Shown: in pieces, positions 3,445 through 11,552 of the stretch | Layout: each line of letters opens with the position of its first letter | Position numbering within the stretch: the stretch's first letter is position 1 | Virus record (IMG/VR): IMGVR_UViG_3300036790_000419 | Span: 84,914 to 148,913 of that record | Length of the DNA stretch: 64,000 bases | Source of the DNA: a virus | Strand: one strand, 5' to 3' | Translations under genes and position numbers: made by a program | The notes under the pieces: model-generated | Seen by the model: only the letters and a program-made list of their open reading frames with translations | What the model was told of the DNA's origin: nothing | The model's database searches: none

Positions 3445-3517
3445 AGGGACGTAGTTCAGCGGCCAGAACGGCAGCTTCCAACACTGCGCGCCGGGGGTTC
3501 GAGTCCTCCCGTCCCTG
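3445..3517 (+). tRNA. tRNA-Trp(CCA)
   Basis: Acceptor AGGGACG/CGTCCCT, D-stem GTTC/GAAC, loop TTCCAAC (anticodon CCA), T-loop TTCGAGT, discriminator G. The anticodon stem closes with a C31-A39 mismatch. First tRNA of the array. Confidence 0.9.
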
Positions 3518-3815
3518 CGACCGTCAGCAACGGCGAGAGCCCGCGCAGGCGCATGTCAATGCAGCTTGAGAACTCCACAGCGTGAGCATCAGCGGCGGGC
3601 GCCATCCCGTCGCACATGACTGGCAGCCGGGTGCGCTCACACCGTGCCCGGCTGCCGATCAACGCCCGGTTCACGGCATGCCGTGACGATGGGCAAGCAC
3701 CGTGCCGTCCGCCGGCCTCCGGGCTCGCGTTCCACCGTAGGGGTGTGCGGCCTGGCTCCGGCCAGGTGGCGGCGGTACTTGGTGTCAAGAGTTTTTGCAC
3801 GATATGCAAAGCAAT
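3518..3815. other. gene-poor spacer with inverted repeats
   Basis: No convincing gene. It holds a 10-bp inverted repeat GGCAGCCGGG (3622-3631) / CCCGGCTGCC (3647-3656) and a perfect 16-base palindrome TCACGGCATGCCGTGA (3671-3686). A TTTGCA/TGCAAA pair lies just before the next tRNA. These are probably processing or termination structures of the array transcript. Confidence 0.5.
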
Positions 3816-3888
3816 GGGGCCTTAGCTCAGCTGGTAGAGCATCTGCTCGGCAGACAGAAGGTCGGGGGTTCGATCCCCCCAGGCTCCA
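3816..3888 (+). tRNA. tRNA-Ala(GGC), C33
   Basis: Acceptor GGGGCCT/AGGCTCC with the alanine-specific G3-U70 pair. Loop TCGGCAG puts C at position 33 and GGC at 34-36. The anticodon stem closes with C31-A39. The other arms are normal, with discriminator A. Confidence 0.75.
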
Positions 3889-3890
3889 CA

Positions 3891-3965
3891 GCGGCGGGTT
3901 GCCGGTTCGAATCCGGTCCGGTCCACGCATGGGCTGGTAGCTCAAATGGACAGAGTGTCGCATCT
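3891..3965 (+). tRNA. circularly permuted tRNA-like element 1
   Basis: The 3' half comes first: GCGGC (anticodon-stem strand, 3891-3895), variable GGGTT, T-arm GCCGG-TTCGAAT-CCGGT, acceptor strand CCGGTCC and discriminator A3925. After a 5-base linker comes the 5' half: acceptor GGGCTGG (3931-3937), TA, D-arm GCTC/GAGT, anticodon-stem strand GTCGC and ATCT. All seven acceptor pairs and all five anticodon-stem pairs form between the halves, including three G-U pairs. It is wedged directly between two complete tRNA-Ala genes. It could be a functional permuted tRNA or the remnant of a tandem duplication. Confidence 0.5.
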
Positions 3966-4038
3966 GGGGACGTAGCTCAGCTGGTAGAGCAGCCGCCTCG
4001 CAAGCGGCGTGTCGCGGGTTCGATTCCCGCCTTCTCCA
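3966..4038 (+). tRNA. tRNA-Ala(CGC)
   Basis: Acceptor GGGGACG/CTTCTCC with G3-U70 and one C-T mismatch. Anticodon stem GCCGC/GCGGC, loop CTCGCAA (anticodon CGC), discriminator A. Starts at the base after the permuted element. Confidence 0.9.
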
Positions 4039-4194
4039 CTTAGGGCACTACTGCCGCGCGTCGGCCGGCGCAAGGCGAGAGAGGGCAGCTGACCTCTCTG
4101 GTGCCTTACCGTTCACCCGTGCGGTAAAACCGGGGACCAGCGGAGCCGAATGTCCGGGGCACCGGGCTGAGGGTGGGGTAAGCCTCCGCAACAT

Positions 4195-4269
4195 CGGGGT
4201 GTGGCGCAGCTTGGCTAGCGCGCTACGTTCGGGACGTAGAGGTCGTGAGTTCAAATCTCACCACTCCGA
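4195..4269 (+). tRNA. tRNA-Pro(CGG)
   Basis: Acceptor CGGGGTG/CACTCCG, D-stem GCGC/GCGC, stem CTACG/CGTAG, loop TTCGGGA (anticodon CGG), discriminator A. CCA is encoded at 4270-4272. Confidence 0.92.
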
Positions 4270-4272
4270 CCA

Positions 4273-4328
4273 GGATCTCAATGGCTCAAGTGAGGCGGCA
4301 GTAAAGGGCCACGCCCTGCCGGAGATCC
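4273..4328 (+). other. structured RNA spacer between tRNA-Pro genes
   Basis: An outer 7-bp stem GGATCTC/GAGATCC encloses two hairpins, CTCA/TGAG and CGGCAG/CTGCCG (with inner GGGC/GCCC). It has no T-loop, so it is not a tRNA. It may be an RNase III or RNase E processing element. Confidence 0.4.
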
Positions 4329-4332
4329 GTAA

Positions 4333-4404
4333 CGGGATGTAGTTCAGTGGAAGAGCGCCTGGTTTGGGACCAGGATGTCGCGGGTTCGAGCCCTGCCATC
4401 CCGA
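4333..4404 (+). tRNA. tRNA-Pro(TGG)
   Basis: Acceptor CGGGATG/CATCCCG, anticodon stem CCTGG/CCAGG, loop TTTGGGA (anticodon TGG), T-loop TTCGAGC, discriminator A. No encoded CCA. Confidence 0.92.
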
Positions 4405-4474
4405 CTGCTGGTCAGAGCCGCGTGGCGTGCGGGCCCTTAGCGGGGCACTCAGGGTTCGAGTCCCTGCCTGGTCA
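4405..4474 (+). other. orphan T-arm, probable tRNA remnant
   Basis: A perfect T-arm CAGGG-TTCGAGT-CCCTG (4450-4466) is followed by CCTGGTC-A like an acceptor end, but no matching 5' acceptor strand lies next to it. CTGGTCAG occurs at both ends (4407 and 4469), suggesting a deletion or rearrangement. Confidence 0.35.
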
Positions 4475-4553
4475 GCCGCTCCGGTAATAGGGACGCCAGC
4501 AGCGGACGCGCGCTGGCGGTCGGTGAAACCCCGTTGCGAATCCGGAGCACCCT

Positions 4554-4626
4554 GGGGCCTTAGCTCAGATGGCAGAGCGCCCGGTTGAAACCCGGAAGGT
4601 CGGAGTCTCGGAATCTCCAGGTCCCG
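4554..4626 (+). tRNA. tRNA-Phe(GAA), aberrant T-loop
   Basis: Acceptor GGGGCCT/AGGTCCC, loop TTGAAAC (anticodon GAA). The T-loop reads CTCGGAA instead of TTCGANT, so the T54 and A58 positions are changed. Discriminator G rather than the usual A. Possibly decaying. Confidence 0.7.
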
Positions 4627-4640
4627 CGCAGTAACACAAT

Positions 4641-4713
4641 GGGGATGTGGCCGAACGGTTACAGGCACTTGCCTTCCAAGCAAGCTACGCGGGTTCGACC
4701 CCCGTCATCCCCT
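4641..4713 (+). tRNA. tRNA-Gly(TCC)
   Basis: Acceptor GGGGATG/CATCCCC, stem CTTGC/GCAAG, loop CTTCCAA (anticodon TCC), discriminator T. Confidence 0.92.
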
Positions 4714-4841
4714 CTGGTACGGGCCGGACTCATACTCCGGTTGCGTGCAAGTAACCGGTCCGCGGCTGTCGGGCTGCGGACCGGGAGCGCCTGGGCTGCC
4801 CGGAGGGGCCGACACCCTCTCCGGGGGCACCAGTACTCAAT

Positions 4842-4913
4842 GCGCCGCGAGCATGTACGGCTATGCAGCGGACTCTTAATCCACGGAACGGGGTTCAAGT
4901 CCCTGGCGGCGCA
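4842..4913 (+). tRNA. tRNA-Lys(CTT)
   Basis: Acceptor GCGCCGC/GCGGCGC, D-stem GCAT/ATGC, loop CTCTTAA (anticodon CTT), discriminator A. Position 8 is G instead of T and the anticodon stem has one C-A mismatch. Confidence 0.85.
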
Positions 4914-4957
4914 CTTCACCTGGCTTCGCCGATTTTCGGCAGAGTTCGGTGTTATTC

Positions 4958-5032
4958 GGGCGAGTAGAGCAACCTGGCAGACCCTCCGCTCCCAAAAAGC
5001 GGGATGTGCGGGTTCGAATCCCGCCTCGCCCA
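4958..5032 (+). tRNA. atypical tRNA, Gly(CCC) or CAA anticodon
   Basis: Perfect acceptor GGGCGAG/CTCGCCC and T-arm GCGGG-TTCGAAT-CCCGC, but a poor D-arm. The anticodon arm reads CCGCT-CCCAAAA-AGCGG. With a 7-base loop the anticodon is CAA with C33, on a short variable region unlike Leu. With a 9-base loop U33 precedes CCC, a glycine anticodon. Identity unresolved. Confidence 0.55.
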
Positions 5033-5136
5033 CGCCGGCTGGCAAGGCCGTCCTGCGAATCCTTGCCCGGCCTCTCCTGTGGGGAGAGCAAAGGCCGTTA
5101 CAGGAGGGGGAGAAAAGGCCCCTCCCGTCAATTCAG

Positions 5137-5209
5137 TGGGGTATGGCGCAATTGGCAGCGCAGGTGCGTCTGGTGCACAAGGTTCTAGGTTCGAGTCCTG
5201 GTACCCCAG
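5137..5209 (+). tRNA. tRNA-Gln(CTG)
   Basis: Acceptor TGGGGTA/TACCCCA with G73 (Gln identity), D-stem GCGC/GCGC, loop GTCTGGT (anticodon CTG), T-loop TTCGAGT. Confidence 0.92.
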
Positions 5210-5212
5210 CGA

Positions 5213-5287
5213 GCTGGAGAATGCGGGTTCGAATCCTGCCCGGCGAGAGAGATCTCGCCGGTGGCTTAATCGGCAAAGCGCCAGCAA
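5213..5287 (+). tRNA. circularly permuted tRNA-like element 2
   Basis: The 3' half is first: anticodon-stem strand GCTGG (5213-5217), variable AGAAT, T-arm GCGGG-TTCGAAT-CCTGC, acceptor strand CCGGCGA and G73 (5247). A 7-base linker follows, then the 5' half: TCGCCGG (5255-5261), TG, D-arm GCTT/AAGC, G26, CCAGC (5281-5285) and AA. The acceptor stem (7 of 7) and anticodon stem (5 of 5) are fully Watson-Crick. A hairpin CCCCGGGC/GCCCGGGG (5288-5320) follows at once. Three bases separate it from the tRNA-Gln end. The anticodon cannot be read because the loop is split. Confidence 0.55.
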
Positions 5288-5321
5288 CCCCGGGCACGGA
5301 CGGTATCCCGGCCCGGGGCCC

Positions 5322-5395
5322 GCCCTTGTAGCTCATCTGGCAAGAGCGCCCGCCCCGTAAGCGGAAGGTCCCGCGTTCGACTCGCGGCAAGGGCT
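5322..5395 (+). tRNA. tRNA-Thr(CGT), C33
   Basis: Acceptor GCCCTTG/CAAGGGC, loop CCCGTAA where CTCGTAA is usual, so U33 is C. T-loop TTCGACT, discriminator T. Confidence 0.8.
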
Positions 5396-5506
5396 CGTAG
5401 TGTCCCGCCGAAGGCGTCACAGGCCCTCATGCCGGCTCCGTTCCAGGTGCCGTGCGGGGTTCGAGTTCTGCTCGTTTCTCCCTCGATCGCGCGTCGCGAT
5501 CATTAT
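5396..5506. other. tRNA remnant and hairpin spacer
   Basis: Contains an isolated T-arm-like GCGGGGTTCGAGTTCTGC (near 5453-5470) without a matching acceptor, and a perfect hairpin GATCGCG-CGT-CGCGATC (5485-5501). Confidence 0.35.
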
Positions 5507-5580
5507 GCCCGGATAGCTCAGACGGCGAGAGCGTATCCCCGGTACGGATGAGGCCCCGAGTTCGATTCTCGGTCCGGGCT
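5507..5580 (+). tRNA. tRNA-Thr(GGT), C33
   Basis: Acceptor GCCCGGA/TCCGGGC, stem TATCC/GGATG, loop CCGGTAC (anticodon GGT, C at 33), T-arm CCGAG-TTCGATT-CTCGG, discriminator T. Confidence 0.8.
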
Positions 5581-5591
5581 CGCAAGTTCAC

Positions 5592-5665
5592 GCGGATGTA
5601 GCTCAGTTGGTTAGAGCGTGACGTTGCCAACGTCAAGGTCGCCGGTTCGAGTCCGGTTATCCGCT
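5592..5665 (+). tRNA. tRNA-Gly(GCC)
   Basis: Acceptor GCGGATG/TATCCGC, stem TGACG/CGTCA, loop TTGCCAA (anticodon GCC), discriminator T. Confidence 0.92.
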
Positions 5666-5666
5666 C

Positions 5667-5749
5667 GGGTGAGTGGCGTAATGGCAGCCGCGCACGGTTC
5701 AGGCCCGTGTGTCCGCAAGGACGTGAGGGTTCAAGTCCCTCCTCGCCTA
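5667..5749 (+). tRNA. tRNA-Leu(CAG)
   Basis: Class II tRNA with a long variable arm (GTCC/GGAC). Acceptor GGGTGAG/CTCGCCT, stem CACGG/CCGTG, loop TTCAGGC (anticodon CAG), discriminator A. Confidence 0.92.
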
Positions 5750-5859
5750 CTTCGAGGTTGTCCACCGTGGCCGCGGGCCGCTGCGCCTGCCGTGCGAGAG
5801 CACGGGTTCCAGGACGGCGGTTAGTTTCCCTGCTAGCGGGAGCGAACGGTGACCTACAC

Positions 5860-5943
5860 GGACGCGTGGCTCAGTGGCTACAGCAGCGCCCTGCTAAGGC
5901 GTACAGGGGTAACCCTGCGGAGGTTCGAGTCCTCCCGCGTCCG
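5860..5943 (+). tRNA. tRNA-Ser(GCT)
   Basis: Class II, variable arm CAGGG/CCCTG. Acceptor GGACGCG/CGCGTCC, loop CTGCTAA (anticodon GCT), discriminator G as expected for Ser. Confidence 0.92.
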
Positions 5944-6028
5944 CTTCTGCGCCGGATACCAGCCGAGTCCGTCAGGTGGTGACGCAGGCGCAGTGCCCGT
6001 GGGGGACGGCAACCCGCGACGGGCGCCC

Positions 6029-6116
6029 GGAAGCGTAAGTCGAGCCGGCCTACCGACAGCGGTCCCGAAAACCGTGAGGGGTAACTCCCGTGTGGGTTCG
6101 AGTCCCACCGCTTCCT
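6029..6116 (+). tRNA. tRNA-Ser(CGA), C33
   Basis: Class II, variable arm GGGG/CTCC. Acceptor GGAAGCG/CGCTTCC, stem GCGGT/ACCGT, loop CCCGAAA where CTCGAAA is usual, so C33. Discriminator T instead of G. Confidence 0.78.
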
Positions 6117-6123
6117 CCGCACA

Positions 6124-6167
6124 TGATTGAGGCGGCACCCACGGGCCGCTTGCGGGTACCGCCTCAA
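6124..6167 (+). terminator. 10-bp hairpin inside the tRNA array
   Basis: ATTGAGGCGG pairs exactly with CCGCCTCAAT around a 23-base loop. It may end or pause a sub-transcript of the array. The following 115 bases are relatively AT-rich, with a second hairpin CGAGCAG/CTGCTCG. Confidence 0.5.
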
Positions 6168-6283
6168 TGTGTAATCAGCCAGGCTGGTGATCCAGTCCAG
6201 AAGGAAGGAACCACGTGCCTTTACGAGCAGCCTAGTTTACTGCTCGCGTTCGCAAGCATACGCACAGTCACAGTGATTGTCGA

Positions 6284-6357
6284 GGGCGGGTAGCTCAGCA
6301 GGTTGGAGCACTTCCCTGATAAGGAAGAGGCCGCTGGTTCGATCCCAGCCTCGCCCA
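6284..6357 (+). tRNA. tRNA-Ile(GAT)
   Basis: Acceptor GGGCGGG/CTCGCCC, stem CTTCC/GGAAG, loop CTGATAA (anticodon GAT), discriminator A, CCA encoded at 6358-6360. Confidence 0.93.
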
Positions 6358-6361
6358 CCAC

Positions 6362-6436
6362 GGCGGTATAGCTCAGCCGGTGAGAGCGCCCCGCTCATAA
6401 CGGGAGAGGCCGGGGGTTCGAGCCCCTCTACCGCTA
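6362..6436 (+). tRNA. tRNA-Met(CAT)
   Basis: Acceptor GGCGGTA/TACCGCT, loop CTCATAA (anticodon CAT), discriminator A. Elongator type, or Ile2 if C34 is lysidinylated; the sequence does not decide. Confidence 0.88.
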
Positions 6437-6437
6437 C

Positions 6438-6511
6438 GGGCCGCTAGCTCAACTGCGCAGAGCGGCTGACCTTTAATCAGCGGGTTCGGGGTTCGAGTCC
6501 CCGGCGGCCCA
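6438..6511 (+). tRNA. tRNA-Lys(TTT)
   Basis: Acceptor GGGCCGC/GCGGCCC, stem GCTGA/TCAGC, loop CCTTTAA (anticodon TTT), T-arm CGGGG-TTCGAGT-CCCCG, discriminator A. Confidence 0.93.
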
Positions 6512-6519
6512 CTAGCCTG

Positions 6520-6675
6520 GTGCGCGTGAGGAACCTCGCGCTCCGGGCAGCTGAGCGCCTGCACGTCATCTTCGACGCCGTCCCGGTTTACGAGGACGAG
6601 CGGTGGTACAGGTACGGAGACTGGGGCTGCCGGGCGTCCAACTGGGTGCGCCGGCAGCGGAACAAGCGCCGGTAG
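6520..6675 (+). CDS. small basic protein inside the tRNA array
   Basis: Fifty-one residues from a GTG nine bases after tRNA-Lys. It is rich in Arg and aromatic residues (RWYRYGDWGC), and its stop TAG lies inside the start of tRNA-Arg(TCT). No clear Shine-Dalgarno. The aromatic and charged composition argues for a real protein, but no family is recognised. Confidence 0.45.
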   Translation: MRVRNLALRAAERLHVIFDAVPVYEDERWYRYGDWGCRASNWVRRQRNKRR

Positions 6676-6739
6676 CTCAGTCGGACAGAGCAGGCGGCTT
6701 CTAACCGCCAGGCCGCGGGTTCGAGCCCCGCCTGGCGCA
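6666..6739 (+). tRNA. tRNA-Arg(TCT)
   Basis: Acceptor GCGCCGG/CTGGCGC, stem GGCGG/CCGCC, loop CTTCTAA (anticodon TCT), discriminator A, CCA encoded. Its first ten bases are also the end of the small frame before it. Confidence 0.93.
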
Positions 6740-6745
6740 CCACAC

Positions 6746-6818
6746 GGTCCTGTCGTCTAGCGGCCCAGGATGCCTGATTCTCGATCAGGTCGCGCGAGTT
6801 CGAATCTCGCCAGGACCA
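6746..6818 (+). tRNA. tRNA-Glu(CTC)
   Basis: Acceptor GGTCCTG/CAGGACC, stem CCTGA/TCAGG, loop TTCTCGA (anticodon CTC), T-loop TTCGAAT, discriminator A. Confidence 0.9.
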
Positions 6819-6912
6819 CGCAGAGCCTGCTACGCGGGAGACGGCCATTGCCAAAGCAGGTACTCTGAGGTCCGCGCCGGGAGCTGGCTGAAATCCGCTC
6901 GGCAGGACGCAA

Positions 6913-6986
6913 GCCCCTCTCGACTAGCGGTCCAGGTCGCCTGCCTTTCAAGCAGGATGACACCGGTTCGAATCCGGTGGGGGGAA
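6913..6986 (+). tRNA. tRNA-Glu(TTC)
   Basis: Acceptor GCCCCTC/GGGGGGA with a G1-A72 mismatch, stem CCTGC/GCAGG, loop CTTTCAA (anticodon TTC), T-arm ACCGG-TTCGAAT-CCGGT. Confidence 0.82.
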
Positions 6987-7017
6987 CGAGGGCCTCCGGG
7001 GTAACCTGGGGGCGCGA

Positions 7018-7095
7018 CGCGGAGTAGGGGAGTTCGGTTGTCCCCGCGGCGCTTTCATAACGCCGAGATCGCGGGTCCGAATCCCGCCTCCGCCA
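7018..7095 (+). tRNA. tRNA with CAT in a 9-base loop, initiator-like
   Basis: Acceptor CGCGGAG/CTCCGCC with a C1-C72 mismatch, as initiators have a 1-72 mismatch. D-stem GGGG/CCCC. Anticodon stem CGGCG/CGCCG encloses a 9-base loop CTTTCATAA; the normal Met loop is CTCATAA, so TT is extra. The T-loop is TCCGAAT, so C replaces T55. Read with a 7-base loop and a C-A closing mismatch the anticodon would be TCA (UGA). Function uncertain. Confidence 0.6.
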
Positions 7096-7186
7096 CGAGG
7101 CCCGGCACTGGCGGCCGGCGAAAGCCCCGGGGAATACGTGGCTGGCCCTGCTGGATAAGGGCTAAACAGCCGGGGGCCTCAGTCGA

Positions 7187-7259
7187 TCCGGCGTAGCTCA
7201 ATCGGCAGAGCAGCGTCCCGTTAAGGCGAGGGTTCCCAGTTCGAGTCTGGGCGCCGGAG
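7187..7259 (+). tRNA. tRNA-Asn(GTT), C33
   Basis: Acceptor TCCGGCG/CGCCGGA with G73, loop CCGTTAA where CTGTTAA is usual, T-arm CCCAG-TTCGAGT-CTGGG. Confidence 0.82.
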
Positions 7260-7364
7260 CGCGTCAGTCTGGGATACGAGGGGCAGCAGCCCTGCCGCGG
7301 CCCGCGCGGCGGTCGCCGAAGCGGGACGAGTGCCGGGGCTCCCCAGTCAGCCGCCGGCACACAT

Positions 7365-7440
7365 GGTCTTGTAGGGGAGCCTGGCCGTCCCCGCCGCCCC
7401 GTCAAGGCGAAGATCGCGGGTTCGAATCCCGCCAGGACCG
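7365..7440 (+). tRNA. tRNA-Asp(GTC), C33
   Basis: Acceptor GGTCTTG/CAGGACC with G73, D-stem GGGG/CCCC, loop CCGTCAA where CTGTCAA is usual, T-arm GCGGG-TTCGAAT-CCCGC. Confidence 0.82.
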
Positions 7441-7464
7441 CTTTCTCACCCGGGGCCGGGGCGT

Positions 7465-7599
7465 TTAGACACCGGAGCGCTTGCGCCGCTCGCCCAGCTC
7501 GGTCCGCCCGAGCCGGTACAGGGCGCGGTAGCCGCCGAGCCTCAGCCCGATCCAGATGCCGGAGCCGAAGGCGATGACCAGGAGGATGAAAATGCCCAC
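7465..7599 (-). CDS. small membrane protein inside the tRNA array
   Basis: Forty-four residues on the minus strand from GTG at 7599, in the gap between tRNA-Asp and tRNA-Val. One hydrophobic helix (residues 3-17, IFILLVIAFGSGIWIG) is followed by an Arg-rich tail (GERRKRSG). It is a plausible single-pass protein with a cytoplasmic basic tail. No homologue recognised. Confidence 0.5.
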   Translation of the reverse strand: MGIFILLVIAFGSGIWIGLRLGGYRALYRLGRTELGERRKRSGV

Positions 7600-7641
7600 G
7601 TGATTAAACGGTACCTGGTTCTTTACCAGTGTCTAGGCACT

Positions 7642-7713
7642 GCCCCTGTAGCTCAACGGGAGAGCGCCGTCTCGACAAGGCGGAGGGAGGTGGTCCGACA
7701 CCACCTAGGGGCA
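7642..7713 (+). tRNA. tRNA-Val(GAC), C33
   Basis: Acceptor GCCCCTG/TAGGGGC, stem CCGTC/GGCGG, loop TCGACAA (anticodon GAC, C33). T-loop TCCGACA has C at 55. Discriminator A, CCA encoded. Confidence 0.78.
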
Positions 7714-7717
7714 CCAT

Positions 7718-7791
7718 GCACTAGTAGCTCAGCGGACAAGAGCAGCGGCCTACGGAGCCGCGTGGCGGGGGTTCGAGTCCCTCCTAGTGCA
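7718..7791 (+). tRNA. tRNA-Arg(ACG)
   Basis: Acceptor GCACTAG/CTAGTGC, stem GCGGC/GCCGC, loop CTACGGA (anticodon ACG, needs inosine for CGC), discriminator A. Confidence 0.92.
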
Positions 7792-7802
7792 CGCGAGTAC
7801 AA

Positions 7803-7874
7803 GGGCGCATAGCTCAGCGGAAGAGCGCTCGGTTCACACCCGAGAGGCCGGCGGTTCGATCCCTTCTGCGCCCA
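7803..7874 (+). tRNA. tRNA-Val(CAC)
   Basis: Acceptor GGGCGCA/TGCGCCC, stem CTCGG/CCGAG, loop TTCACAC (anticodon CAC), discriminator A. The T-stem has one mismatch. Confidence 0.9.
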
Positions 7875-7875
7875 C

Positions 7876-7947
7876 GGTCGGTATAGCTCAACGGCAGAGC
7901 GCTGGACTGTGGCTCCAGACATACGAGTTCGATTCTCGTTACCAACC
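7876..7947 (+). tRNA. tRNA-His(GTG)
   Basis: Carries the His identity pair G-1 (7876) with C73. Stem CTGGA/TCCAG, loop CTGTGGC (anticodon GTG), T-arm ACGAG-TTCGATT-CTCGT, one C3-A70 acceptor mismatch. Confidence 0.9.
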
Positions 7948-7951
7948 CCAT

Positions 7952-8032
7952 GGCGGAGTGACCCGAGATGGCAAGGGGGCCGGCTGTAAACCGGCTGCGC
8001 GAGCATGGCAGGTTCGAGCCCTGCGTCCGTCA
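7952..8032 (+). tRNA. tRNA-Tyr(GTA)
   Basis: Long variable arm as in bacterial Tyr tRNAs. Stem GCCGG/CCGGC, loop CTGTAAA (anticodon GTA), T-arm GCAGG-TTCGAGC-CCTGC, discriminator A, CCA encoded. Confidence 0.9.
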
Positions 8033-8036
8033 CCAA

Positions 8037-8110
8037 GGTCTCATAGCTCAGTGGAACAGAGCACCCGCCTCCGGAGCGGGGGGCCGGCGGTTCGAGTCCG
8101 TCTGAGACCA
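8037..8110 (+). tRNA. tRNA-Arg(CCG)
   Basis: Acceptor GGTCTCA/TGAGACC, stem CCCGC/GCGGG, loop CTCCGGA (anticodon CCG), discriminator A. Confidence 0.92.
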
Positions 8111-8198
8111 CGACTGAGTTCACCGCCGTGACCTGGCAGCGGGTAGCGGTGGGCCAGTAAAGCGGGGCGTGCTGCCGGCTACGCCTGCCCCGTCCAAT

Positions 8199-8271
8199 GG
8201 CGGTATGGCCGAGTGGTACAGGCGCACGCCTGCAAAACGTGCTTACCCGGGTCCGATTCCCGGTGCCGCCT
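8199..8271 (+). tRNA. tRNA-Cys(GCA)
   Basis: Acceptor GGCGGTA/TGCCGCC, stem CACGC/ACGTG with C31-A39 closing mismatch, loop CTGCAAA (anticodon GCA). T-loop TCCGATT has C at 55. Discriminator T, CCA encoded. Confidence 0.88.
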
Positions 8272-8275
8272 CCAG

Positions 8276-8348
8276 GACCCTGTAGCTCAGCGGACAGAGC
8301 TGCTTCCCCCTAAGGAGCGAGTCGCTGGTTCGAGTCCAGCCAGGGCCG
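8276..8348 (+). tRNA. tRNA-Arg(CCT), C33
   Basis: Acceptor GACCCTG/CAGGGCC with one A-C mismatch, stem GCTTC/GGAGC, loop CCCCTAA where CTCCTAA is usual, discriminator G. Last tRNA of the array. Confidence 0.82.
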
Positions 8349-8378
8349 CCTTCGGTGCTCACGCTGTGGCAGCCTGGA

Positions 8379-9953: not shown

Positions 9954-11552
9954 ATGACTACACCGGGCGGCGGGCAGGGCTCCTACAGCTCCAGCGTGCA
10001 GCCGCCTGGTGGCCTCGGGGTTAGCAGTCAGGGCTACGGCCAGGAGGGCTACGTCCTGCAGGACGAGCAGACGCTTGTCCAGCCGCCCGACGAAGCTCTC
10101 AATTTTGCCACCGGCGTCCCGTACTTCCTCCCCTTCGCCACCCCGTACCGGGACTCGTGGGAGGTCTTCCGCGACGACCCGGTCAGCATCCGCCAGCTGG
10201 TCACCATGCGCCGCCGCGACGGCCAGGCCAGGGCGCTGTACCGGCTGCTGACCAAGCCGCTGCTGAGCGCGATGAAGAACGCCGACGTGGTGCCCGCCGA
10301 CGGGGTGACCGGCGGGGTGGAGGAGGCCCGGTTCTGCAAGGACCTGCTGTTCGCGCCGCGGGCGCAGGGCGGCATGTCTCAGTCGTTTGACAAATTCGTC
10401 AAGCAGATGCTGCTCGCGCTGTTCAACGGGTTCAGCGCCTGGGAGATGGTCTACTGGGTCCCCAAGACCGGGCCGAACAAGGGCAAGTGGACGCTGCGCA
10501 AGATGGACTGGCGCCCTTCGGAGACCCTCACCTTCCTGCTTGACGGCCAGGGCGAGTTCAACGGCTTCCGGCAGCGCACGTTCTTCCAGGGCCGGACGAT
10601 CGACGTCAAGATCGCGAAAGAGACCGCGCTGTACTACGCGCACGAGGAAGCCGAGCGGCCGTTCTACGGCGTGTCCATGTTCGAGAGCGCCTTCTACCAC
10701 TACGACAAGAAGGAGAAGCTCTACTACATCGCTCACCTGGCGGCGCAGCGGGCCGCGGTGGGCCTGCGGGTGGGCACGATGGTGCCGAATGCCCCGGCTG
10801 AGGACAAGAACAACTTCATCCGGGCGCTGGCCCAGCTCGGGCTCGCGCAGTACATCGCGCTGCCCACCGCCGACTGGACGGTGCAGACCCTCAACGAGTC
10901 AGCCAGCCGGTTCGACTTCCTGGGGCTGATCAACCACCACAACAGCCAGATGTCCAAGAGCGTTCTCGCCCAGTGGTTCGACAACGAGCAGGGAGGCGGC
11001 CAGGGGGACAGCACGCTGGTCGACTTCGGCAAGCAGGACGACGTCACCTACTTCCTGATGCTGGAGGGCATCCTGGAGGAGATGGCCGGGATCATCACCG
11101 ACCACATCTTCCCGCGCTTCGTCGACTGGAACTTCGGCTCCGGCAAGTACCCGCAGTTCAAGTGGGGCCCGCTGACCGAGGAGGCCAAGGCCGCCATCCA
11201 GGACACGTTCGACAAGCTGGCCACCGCCGGCCAGCAGGCCAACGTCACGCCGGAGTTCATGCTCGACCTGGAGCAGCGGATGGCCGTCGACTTCGGGTTC
11301 GACATCGACTACGACAAGATCAAGGCGGACCGCGAGAAGCAGCAGAAGCAGATGGCCGCCCAGCAGAAGCAGATGGCCGCCCAGGCCCAGCAGCAGGCGC
11401 AGAACCCGGTCCAGGCCGGGAAGGGCGGGTCCCCCCAGCAGCCGGTGGTGCACATCAAGGTCCCGGTCGGCTCCCAGACTTCCGCCACCGGCACGTCGGC
11501 CTCCGGCGGCAGCGCGGTCGGCCAGCGCAGCGGGAACGGGCTAGACAGGTGA
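9954..11552 (+). CDS. portal protein (DUF935/Mu gp29-like)
   Basis: The 532-residue protein forms the dodecameric ring at the capsid vertex through which DNA passes. Recognised by the DUF935-like order: N-terminal MRRRDGQARAL region, FNGFSAWEMVYW, then WRPSETLTF, HEEAERPFYGVSMFE and HLAAQRAAVGLRVG. The C-terminal 80 residues carry a Gln-rich segment with the repeat QKQMAAQ. The ATG is fixed by the start-associated motif CCGATTAAGGGGGCATG. The next gene overlaps its stop. Confidence 0.85.
   Translation: MTTPGGGQGSYSSSVQPPGGLGVSSQGYGQEGYVLQDEQTLVQPPDEALNFATGVPYFLPFATPYRDSWEVFRDDPVSIRQLVTMRRRDGQARALYRLLTKPLLSAMKNADVVPADGVTGGVEEARFCKDLLFAPRAQGGMSQSFDKFVKQMLLALFNGFSAWEMVYWVPKTGPNKGKWTLRKMDWRPSETLTFLLDGQGEFNGFRQRTFFQGRTIDVKIAKETALYYAHEEAERPFYGVSMFESAFYHYDKKEKLYYIAHLAAQRAAVGLRVGTMVPNAPAEDKNNFIRALAQLGLAQYIALPTADWTVQTLNESASRFDFLGLINHHNSQMSKSVLAQWFDNEQGGGQGDSTLVDFGKQDDVTYFLMLEGILEEMAGIITDHIFPRFVDWNFGSGKYPQFKWGPLTEEAKAAIQDTFDKLATAGQQANVTPEFMLDLEQRMAVDFGFDIDYDKIKADREKQQKQMAAQQKQMAAQAQQQAQNPVQAGKGGSPQQPVVHIKVPVGSQTSATGTSASGGSAVGQRSGNGLDR

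Follow-up and report, generated by a model that had tools for sequence, protein, structure and literature searches.

The window analysed here is a stretch of viral DNA of 64,000 nucleotides, corresponding to positions 84914-148913 of a virus record of 148,913 bases. ARAGORN predicted 33 tRNA genes in the window, at 3445-8350. This array lies between a terminase-like gene with homology to phage terminases (456-2489) and a Mu-type portal gene (9954-11552). Viral contigs were searched for terminases and portals, which yielded relatives with syntenic arrays; the terminase identity of the nearest ones was 83-92%. Two minor features of the array can be mentioned here. At 7018-7096, ARAGORN called a tRNA-SeC(TCA) with the loop TTTCATAA; because of this loop and because the same slot is occupied by tRNA-Met(CAT) in relatives, this gene is probably a tRNA-Met rather than a tRNA-SeC. 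At 4410-4473, an orphan T arm has no clear partner half, and its tRNA-like match (mascRNA, 21.9 bits) is weak.

The gap between the tRNA-Ala(GGC) and tRNA-Ala(CGC) genes is filled exactly by two tRNA-like halves, the 3' half coming first and the 5' half second (Table 1). A scan of the window in which the complete tRNAs were masked detected two strong and equally good elements, this one and a second one at 5210-5285. In the Ala-Ala element, the scan delineated an acceptor-type stem of 7 bp (two of the pairs being G-U), a D stem of 4 bp, an anticodon-type stem of 5 bp (one G-U pair) and a T stem of 5 bp. The terminal anticodon-type stem is followed outward by 2 nt on the 5' side and 4 nt on the 3' side before the flanking tRNAs are reached. 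The initial annotation had described this locus as a permuted tRNA-like element; every part that it named could be read from the sequence, the permuted order and the 7-bp acceptor pairing were recovered in the masked scan, and the element was confirmed to fit tightly between complete tRNA-Ala genes, with CA upstream and ATCT downstream. A nested arrangement, with one tRNA inserted into another, was rejected, as no matching outer half was seen by eye beyond the Ala genes.

Table 1. Positions of the tRNA-like elements, their parts and associated features (window coordinates unless a relative is named).
Feature	Position	Strand	Basis
tRNA-Ala(GGC), upstream neighbour	3816-3888 (ARAGORN end: 3889)	+	ARAGORN; Rfam tRNA 58.9 bits
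Whole closed element, candidate tRNA mimic, Y-RNA-like, 77 nt	3889-3965	+	masked scan; MFE fold; YrlA match
CA, directly after tRNA-Ala(GGC)	3889-3890	+	sequence
Anticodon-type stem, first strand GCGGC	3891-3895	+	pairs with 3957-3961
Variable-loop equivalent GGGTT	3896-3900	+	masked scan
T arm GCCGG-TTCGAAT-CCGGT	3901-3917	+	masked scan; stem covaries in 16 elements
Acceptor-type stem, first strand CCGGTCC	3918-3924	+	7 pairs with 3931-3937; helix in covariation set
Short loop ACGCAT, closing the acceptor end	3925-3930	+	fold; A = 3925
Acceptor-type stem, second strand GGGCTGG	3931-3937	+	masked scan; covariation
D arm GCTC-AAATGGACA-GAGT	3940-3956	+	masked scan; covariation
Anticodon-type stem, second strand GTCGC	3957-3961	+	immediately 3' of D arm, without nt 26
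3' tail ATCT, immediately before the next tRNA	3962-3965	+	sequence
tRNA-Ala(CGC), downstream neighbour	3966-4038	+	ARAGORN; Rfam 64.3 bits
Second closed element, candidate tRNA mimic, between tRNA-Gln(CTG) and tRNA-Thr(CGT)	5210-5285	+	7/5/4/5-bp stems; closed form = MFE
Strong hairpin right after the Gln-Thr element	5288-5318	+	counterparts in L004, L008; z -2.65, -2.05, -2.77
RNA units after SCO0854-family gene	L005 20121-20505; L032 4058-4312; L055 9593-9960

Closed fold and comparison with YrlA

The uncut 77-nt RNA folds closed before any joining of its ends. Its minimum free energy (MFE) structure (-27.7 kcal/mol) comprises the T arm, the D arm, an acceptor arm capped by the short loop, and the anticodon-type stem formed at the RNA's own ends. 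The closed form was also the MFE structure for the L004 Ala-Ala element, the second window element, the L017 element and a module of the phage Samisti12, and it lay within 0.8 to 2.7 kcal/mol of the minimum in the six other elements that were folded. The energy of the window element was ordinary relative to shuffled sequences (z -0.79), so that the weight of the argument rests on covariation (next section).

The best Rfam match for 3886-3967 (cmscan) was to positions 17-92 of the 114 of the bacterial Y RNA YrlA, with 30.0 bits against a gathering cut-off of 69; the second element scored 25.8 bits with the same model. The match spans the tRNA-like domain, and the T arm, the D arm and the loop-closed acceptor arm were all found. 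The score is supporting evidence only, because neighbouring complete tRNAs can reach about 30 bits: a chimaera of adjacent complete tRNAs across tRNA-Pro genes (G006:81527-81654) obtained about 31 bits. The similarity extends to the layout, since both the tRNA-like domain of YrlA (Rfam RF02553) and the window element consist of a 3'-type half, a closing loop and a 5'-type half, with T, D and acceptor arms, an anticodon-type stem continuing outward, and no nucleotide 26 between the D arm and this stem. The YrlA domain (PDB 6CU1, as cited in PMC8394870) is similar to the D, T and acceptor arms of tRNA; DusA and TruB modify it, PNPase is bound by it, and the basal stem of YrlA binds Rsr (reviewed in PMC8394870).

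Closed modules of the same fold were recovered in a positive control, about 1.3 kb or less upstream of annotated Ro60 genes in three phages: mycobacteriophage ET08 (37.4 bits, below threshold), Rhodococcus phage Trina (three modules) and Microbacterium phage Cece (one module). The Samisti12 module has this fold as well and lies 5.5 kb upstream of a Ro60 gene (YrlA, 33.1 bits). Two further modules, near the portal gene in relatives and inside outer-stem units, scored 37.9 bits (L005 20249-20318) and 37.1 bits (L032 4175-4240); group I or group II intron flanks were considered around the pre-portal element of L005 and rejected, cmscan giving YrlA and no intron at a useful score. The modules of Samisti12 (L016 17920-17991, record NC_042012 77919-77990) and NootNoot (L089 9997-10068, record 75996-76067) are unannotated. 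Both are cultured Streptomyces phages that encode Ro60, a Band-7 protein and a T4 Rnl1-type ligase, which makes them good laboratory systems. The Band-7 protein, considered as a possible partner, is present in Samisti12 and absent in the clade of the window phage.

The window element differs from YrlA in its location between tRNA genes and in its sub-threshold score. It has no basal Ro-binding stem, the 2 + 4 nt outside its terminal stem leaving no room for one between the tRNAs. ET08, Trina, Cece and Samisti12 all encode Ro60, whereas no Ro60 (TROVE, PF05731) gene was found in the record of the window phage or in 14 others, all of them possibly incomplete, in a search that was positive in one control genome. 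We conclude that the element is very likely a tRNA-mimic RNA, belonging to the same structural class as the tRNA-like domain found in bacterial Y RNAs. Because the searches for a basal stem and for a Ro60 gene were both negative, we do not classify it as a Y RNA itself and treat it as a variant of this domain.

Distribution and covariation of the elements

Orthologous elements occur at the Ala-Ala site in L004, L007 and L008. Their acceptor sequences differ (CCGGGCT/AGCCCGG, CCGGTCA/TGGCCGG and CCCGGAG/ATCCGGG, respectively) and yet form 7, 7 and 6 of the 7 pairs. The element is absent from this site in L009 and L010; by eye, the Ala-Ala gap of L010 (13292-13730) carries an apparent HNH endonuclease reading frame instead. 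DNA pattern scans with the 5' or the 3' half recovered L007 and L008 again and zero new orthologues, two further matches being rejected as ordinary tRNA-like genes. At other sites, elements were found between tRNA-Pro genes (L004, L005, L008 and L017), after tRNA-Ala(CGC) (L022), and close to the portal gene, away from tRNAs (L005 20249 and L032 4175), and many tRNA gaps contain none. In L038 (50-197), two closed modules stand in tandem between tRNA-Pro and tRNA-Phe, with ACA alone separating them.

The loop capping the acceptor arm reaches 53-73 nt in the Ala-Ala elements of L004, L007 and L008 and contains a conserved hairpin common to the three (AGTA-CGC-NNN-GCG-GAA), which resembles a bulged-G (loop E) motif. 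The strong hairpin downstream of the second window element has counterparts at L004 11091-11143 and L008 15329-15382, each directly after the Gln-Thr element.

Since adjacent complete tRNAs can imitate the order of the halves, they provide the right control set: 1 of 297 adjacent complete-tRNA pairs reached at least 6 acceptor pairs together with 5 anticodon-stem pairs. Among 18 elements, each acceptor strand formed on average 5.83 of the 7 pairs with its own partner versus 3.76 with mismatched partners, and the corresponding values for the anticodon-type stem were 4.72 versus 3.44 of 5 pairs; none of 20,000 permutations was as good in either case. In a set of 16 elements, 94.9% of the cells of the T, acceptor and D stems were paired versus 75.7% in shuffles. 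Changes on both sides were observed at 13 of the 16 pairs tested, and the covariation score was 0.566 versus 0.191 in shuffles (0/500 shuffles). A hand alignment including the anticodon-type stem agreed with this result. In these pairing and covariation sets, D-arm motifs served to position the 5' anchors by visual inspection, and elements that are related do not constitute independent observations. Pairing was imperfect in some elements, with 5 of 7 acceptor pairs in five of them, and the L007 Pro-Pro and L005 Ala-Ala elements paired poorly under the strict anchor. The tRNA-like element at 3889-3965 is not a product of chance, and the RNA structure of these elements looks to be under selection, because locus-specific pairing and covariation both exceed the values obtained with permutations and shuffles.

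Probable release, possible function and alternative readings

The reading that we favour, and consider probable, is that of a free tRNA mimic excised by the processing of its neighbours and acting as a decoy or as an effector-binding RNA. We infer that the element is transcribed within the polycistronic tRNA transcript. As the terminal stem is flanked by 2 nt on its 5' side and 4 nt on its 3' side, the ends of the neighbouring tRNAs would define those of the element, and 3' trimming of tRNA-Ala(GGC) together with the 5' cut of tRNA-Ala(CGC) would free a single 77-nt RNA. We regard such a release by neighbour processing as rather likely. Established enzymology predicts a single linear product carrying a 5'-phosphate and a 3'-OH. 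The suggestion that normal end-processing of the neighbours liberates the halves therefore holds in part: this processing could set both outer ends, but it would yield one continuous RNA and not two halves.

Because it has neither an anticodon loop nor a free acceptor end, the mimic should be neither charged nor decoding. Most likely, it would instead occupy proteins that recognise the tRNA elbow; it could, for instance, be a decoy that distracts tRNA-attacking host enzymes, or an effector-binding RNA. A study in Salmonella proposed that the YrlA domain, itself uncut by an anticodon nuclease, may inhibit that nuclease (PMC7790460). A phage RNA that keeps the elbow and lacks the anticodon loop and the free 3' end would suit a decoy, a role that we propose tentatively. 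Equally speculative is a broader scenario, in which a family of free-standing mimics would have separated from the half of Y RNAs that binds Ro60, have proliferated within tRNA-array gaps and, once excised by neighbour processing, serve as uncuttable decoys against tRNA-attacking host enzymes. If such mimics are made, phage tRNA arrays would encode tRNA look-alikes beside tRNAs, and molecules with no anticodon to cut would be a plausible counter to tRNA-cutting host defences.

Alternatively, the element could be a genuine Y RNA that partners with a host protein, either Ro60 or one of the SCO0854 family, and the array copy would correspond to the effector-binding half of the ribonucleoprotein (RNP). 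The fold shared with modules beside Ro60 genes is consistent with this, as is the presence in L005 and L032, downstream of an SCO0854-family gene, of a full outer-stem unit that contains a module of this kind. Nevertheless, with no basal stem fitting between the tRNAs and neither a Ro60 nor an SCO0854-like gene found in the phage record, we consider it unlikely.

Permuted tRNA genes of red algae and archaea, like the element, have their 3' half upstream of their 5' half. In a true permuted tRNA, RNase P and RNase Z would cut in the acceptor loop and neighbour processing would expose the outer ends, so that the halves could be ligated in the anticodon loop. The order and pairing of the halves fit this scheme, and the joined Pro-Pro elements of L017 and L004 would have 7-nt loops. 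The ends expected from RNase P and RNase Z, a 3'-OH and a 5'-phosphate, are unusable by RtcB and would suit a T4 Rnl1-type ligase. However, several observations speak against a working tRNA made from ligated halves, a possibility raised by the initial annotation. The uncut strand already has the closed form as its energy minimum. When the exact halves of the window element are joined through ATCT and CA, the result is a 6-nt loop to which ARAGORN can assign no anticodon, and not a 7-nt loop with U33 and an anticodon. The discriminator position N73, which is A in the window element, is C in 8 of 16 elements versus 7 of the 329 complete tRNAs of the arrays, so that the family as a whole departs from normal tRNAs. 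No neighbouring tRNA could separate the L038 modules, since ACA alone stands between them, and a discarded spacer would not need the conserved cap hairpin of L004, L007 and L008. An RtcB-type ligase, for which the initial annotation had suggested a search, was not found in the phage record, nor were ligases of the Rnl2 and T4 Rnl1 types; the last was also absent from 14 further records, the identical search being positive in the Streptomyces phages Samisti12, NootNoot and Comrade.

Compared with the permuted genes of red algae and archaea, the element thus lacks a restorable anticodon loop, the N73 constraint and a known ligation signal. A literature search limited to one library returned no relevant report of permuted tRNAs in phages. 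Two-piece (permuted) tmRNA also has a permuted tRNA-like part, to which a part coding for the tag is added; the element has no such part, and ARAGORN calls no tmRNA in the window. The element is probably not a scrambled tRNA that is cut and rejoined, and we give a true permuted tRNA very little credence. This case illustrates how what looks like a permuted tRNA in phage DNA can be a tRNA mimic resembling Y RNA; clear tests distinguish the two.

It is also very improbable that the element is a relic, left by tandem tRNA copies that lost their outer halves and decaying since. Two like tRNAs in tandem would produce this order of halves, and orphan T arms occur elsewhere in arrays. Against a relic stand the locus-specific pairing kept despite sequence change, the conserved cap hairpin, and the lack of a non-permuted parent, no complete tRNA in the arrays matching either half above about 83-84%. 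Finally, a structured spacer that aids RNase P and the 3' enzymes on the flanking tRNAs, with no role of its own, would account for the close gap fit at several sites (Ala-Ala, Pro-Pro, next to tRNA-Phe) but is extremely unlikely given the elements located away from tRNAs (L005, L032) and the many gaps without one.

SCO0854-family genes and adjacent RNA

In L005, L032 and L055, a gene of the SCO0854 family (MXAN_6230/SCO0854) is followed by tandem RNA units (Table 1) with the motif GGCCATNGG...CTTCCTTC. In the two proteins that were scanned, the match to NF041916 was below its cut-off; the copy in L055 shares 64% identity with the one in L032. By eye, the outer stems of the L032 units differ in sequence yet pair. 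One unit in L005 and one in L032 enclose a closed tRNA-like module.

Of 15 bacterial genomes (L091-L105), belonging to Streptomyces, Actinomadura, Nocardia and Streptosporangiaceae, 14 carry the same motif shortly after the homologous gene. It corresponds to a conserved, covarying small RNA, GGCGAGGCCATG..GGGCTTCCTTC...CCTCGCC. In the consensus fold of 13 of the bacterial RNAs, 10 of 16 pairs were changed on both sides, and Rfam gave no match for the five of these RNAs that were searched.

An AlphaFold model of the SCO0854-like protein, built from 16 sequences (pLDDT 77.5), combines a helical region with a TerD-like domain (Z 15-16). Foldseek returned no match at E below 0.001 for this model. 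Structure comparison aligned it with Ro60 (2nvo, Z 6.8, 318 residues, rmsd 6.2; 2i91, Z 6.0, 242 residues, rmsd 6.1), matches that are too weak to claim a shared fold. It is possible that the SCO0854-family protein and its adjacent RNA form a Ro60-like RNP, which would make this pair a candidate Ro60-like system, with a conserved RNA, in Streptomyces and related bacteria.
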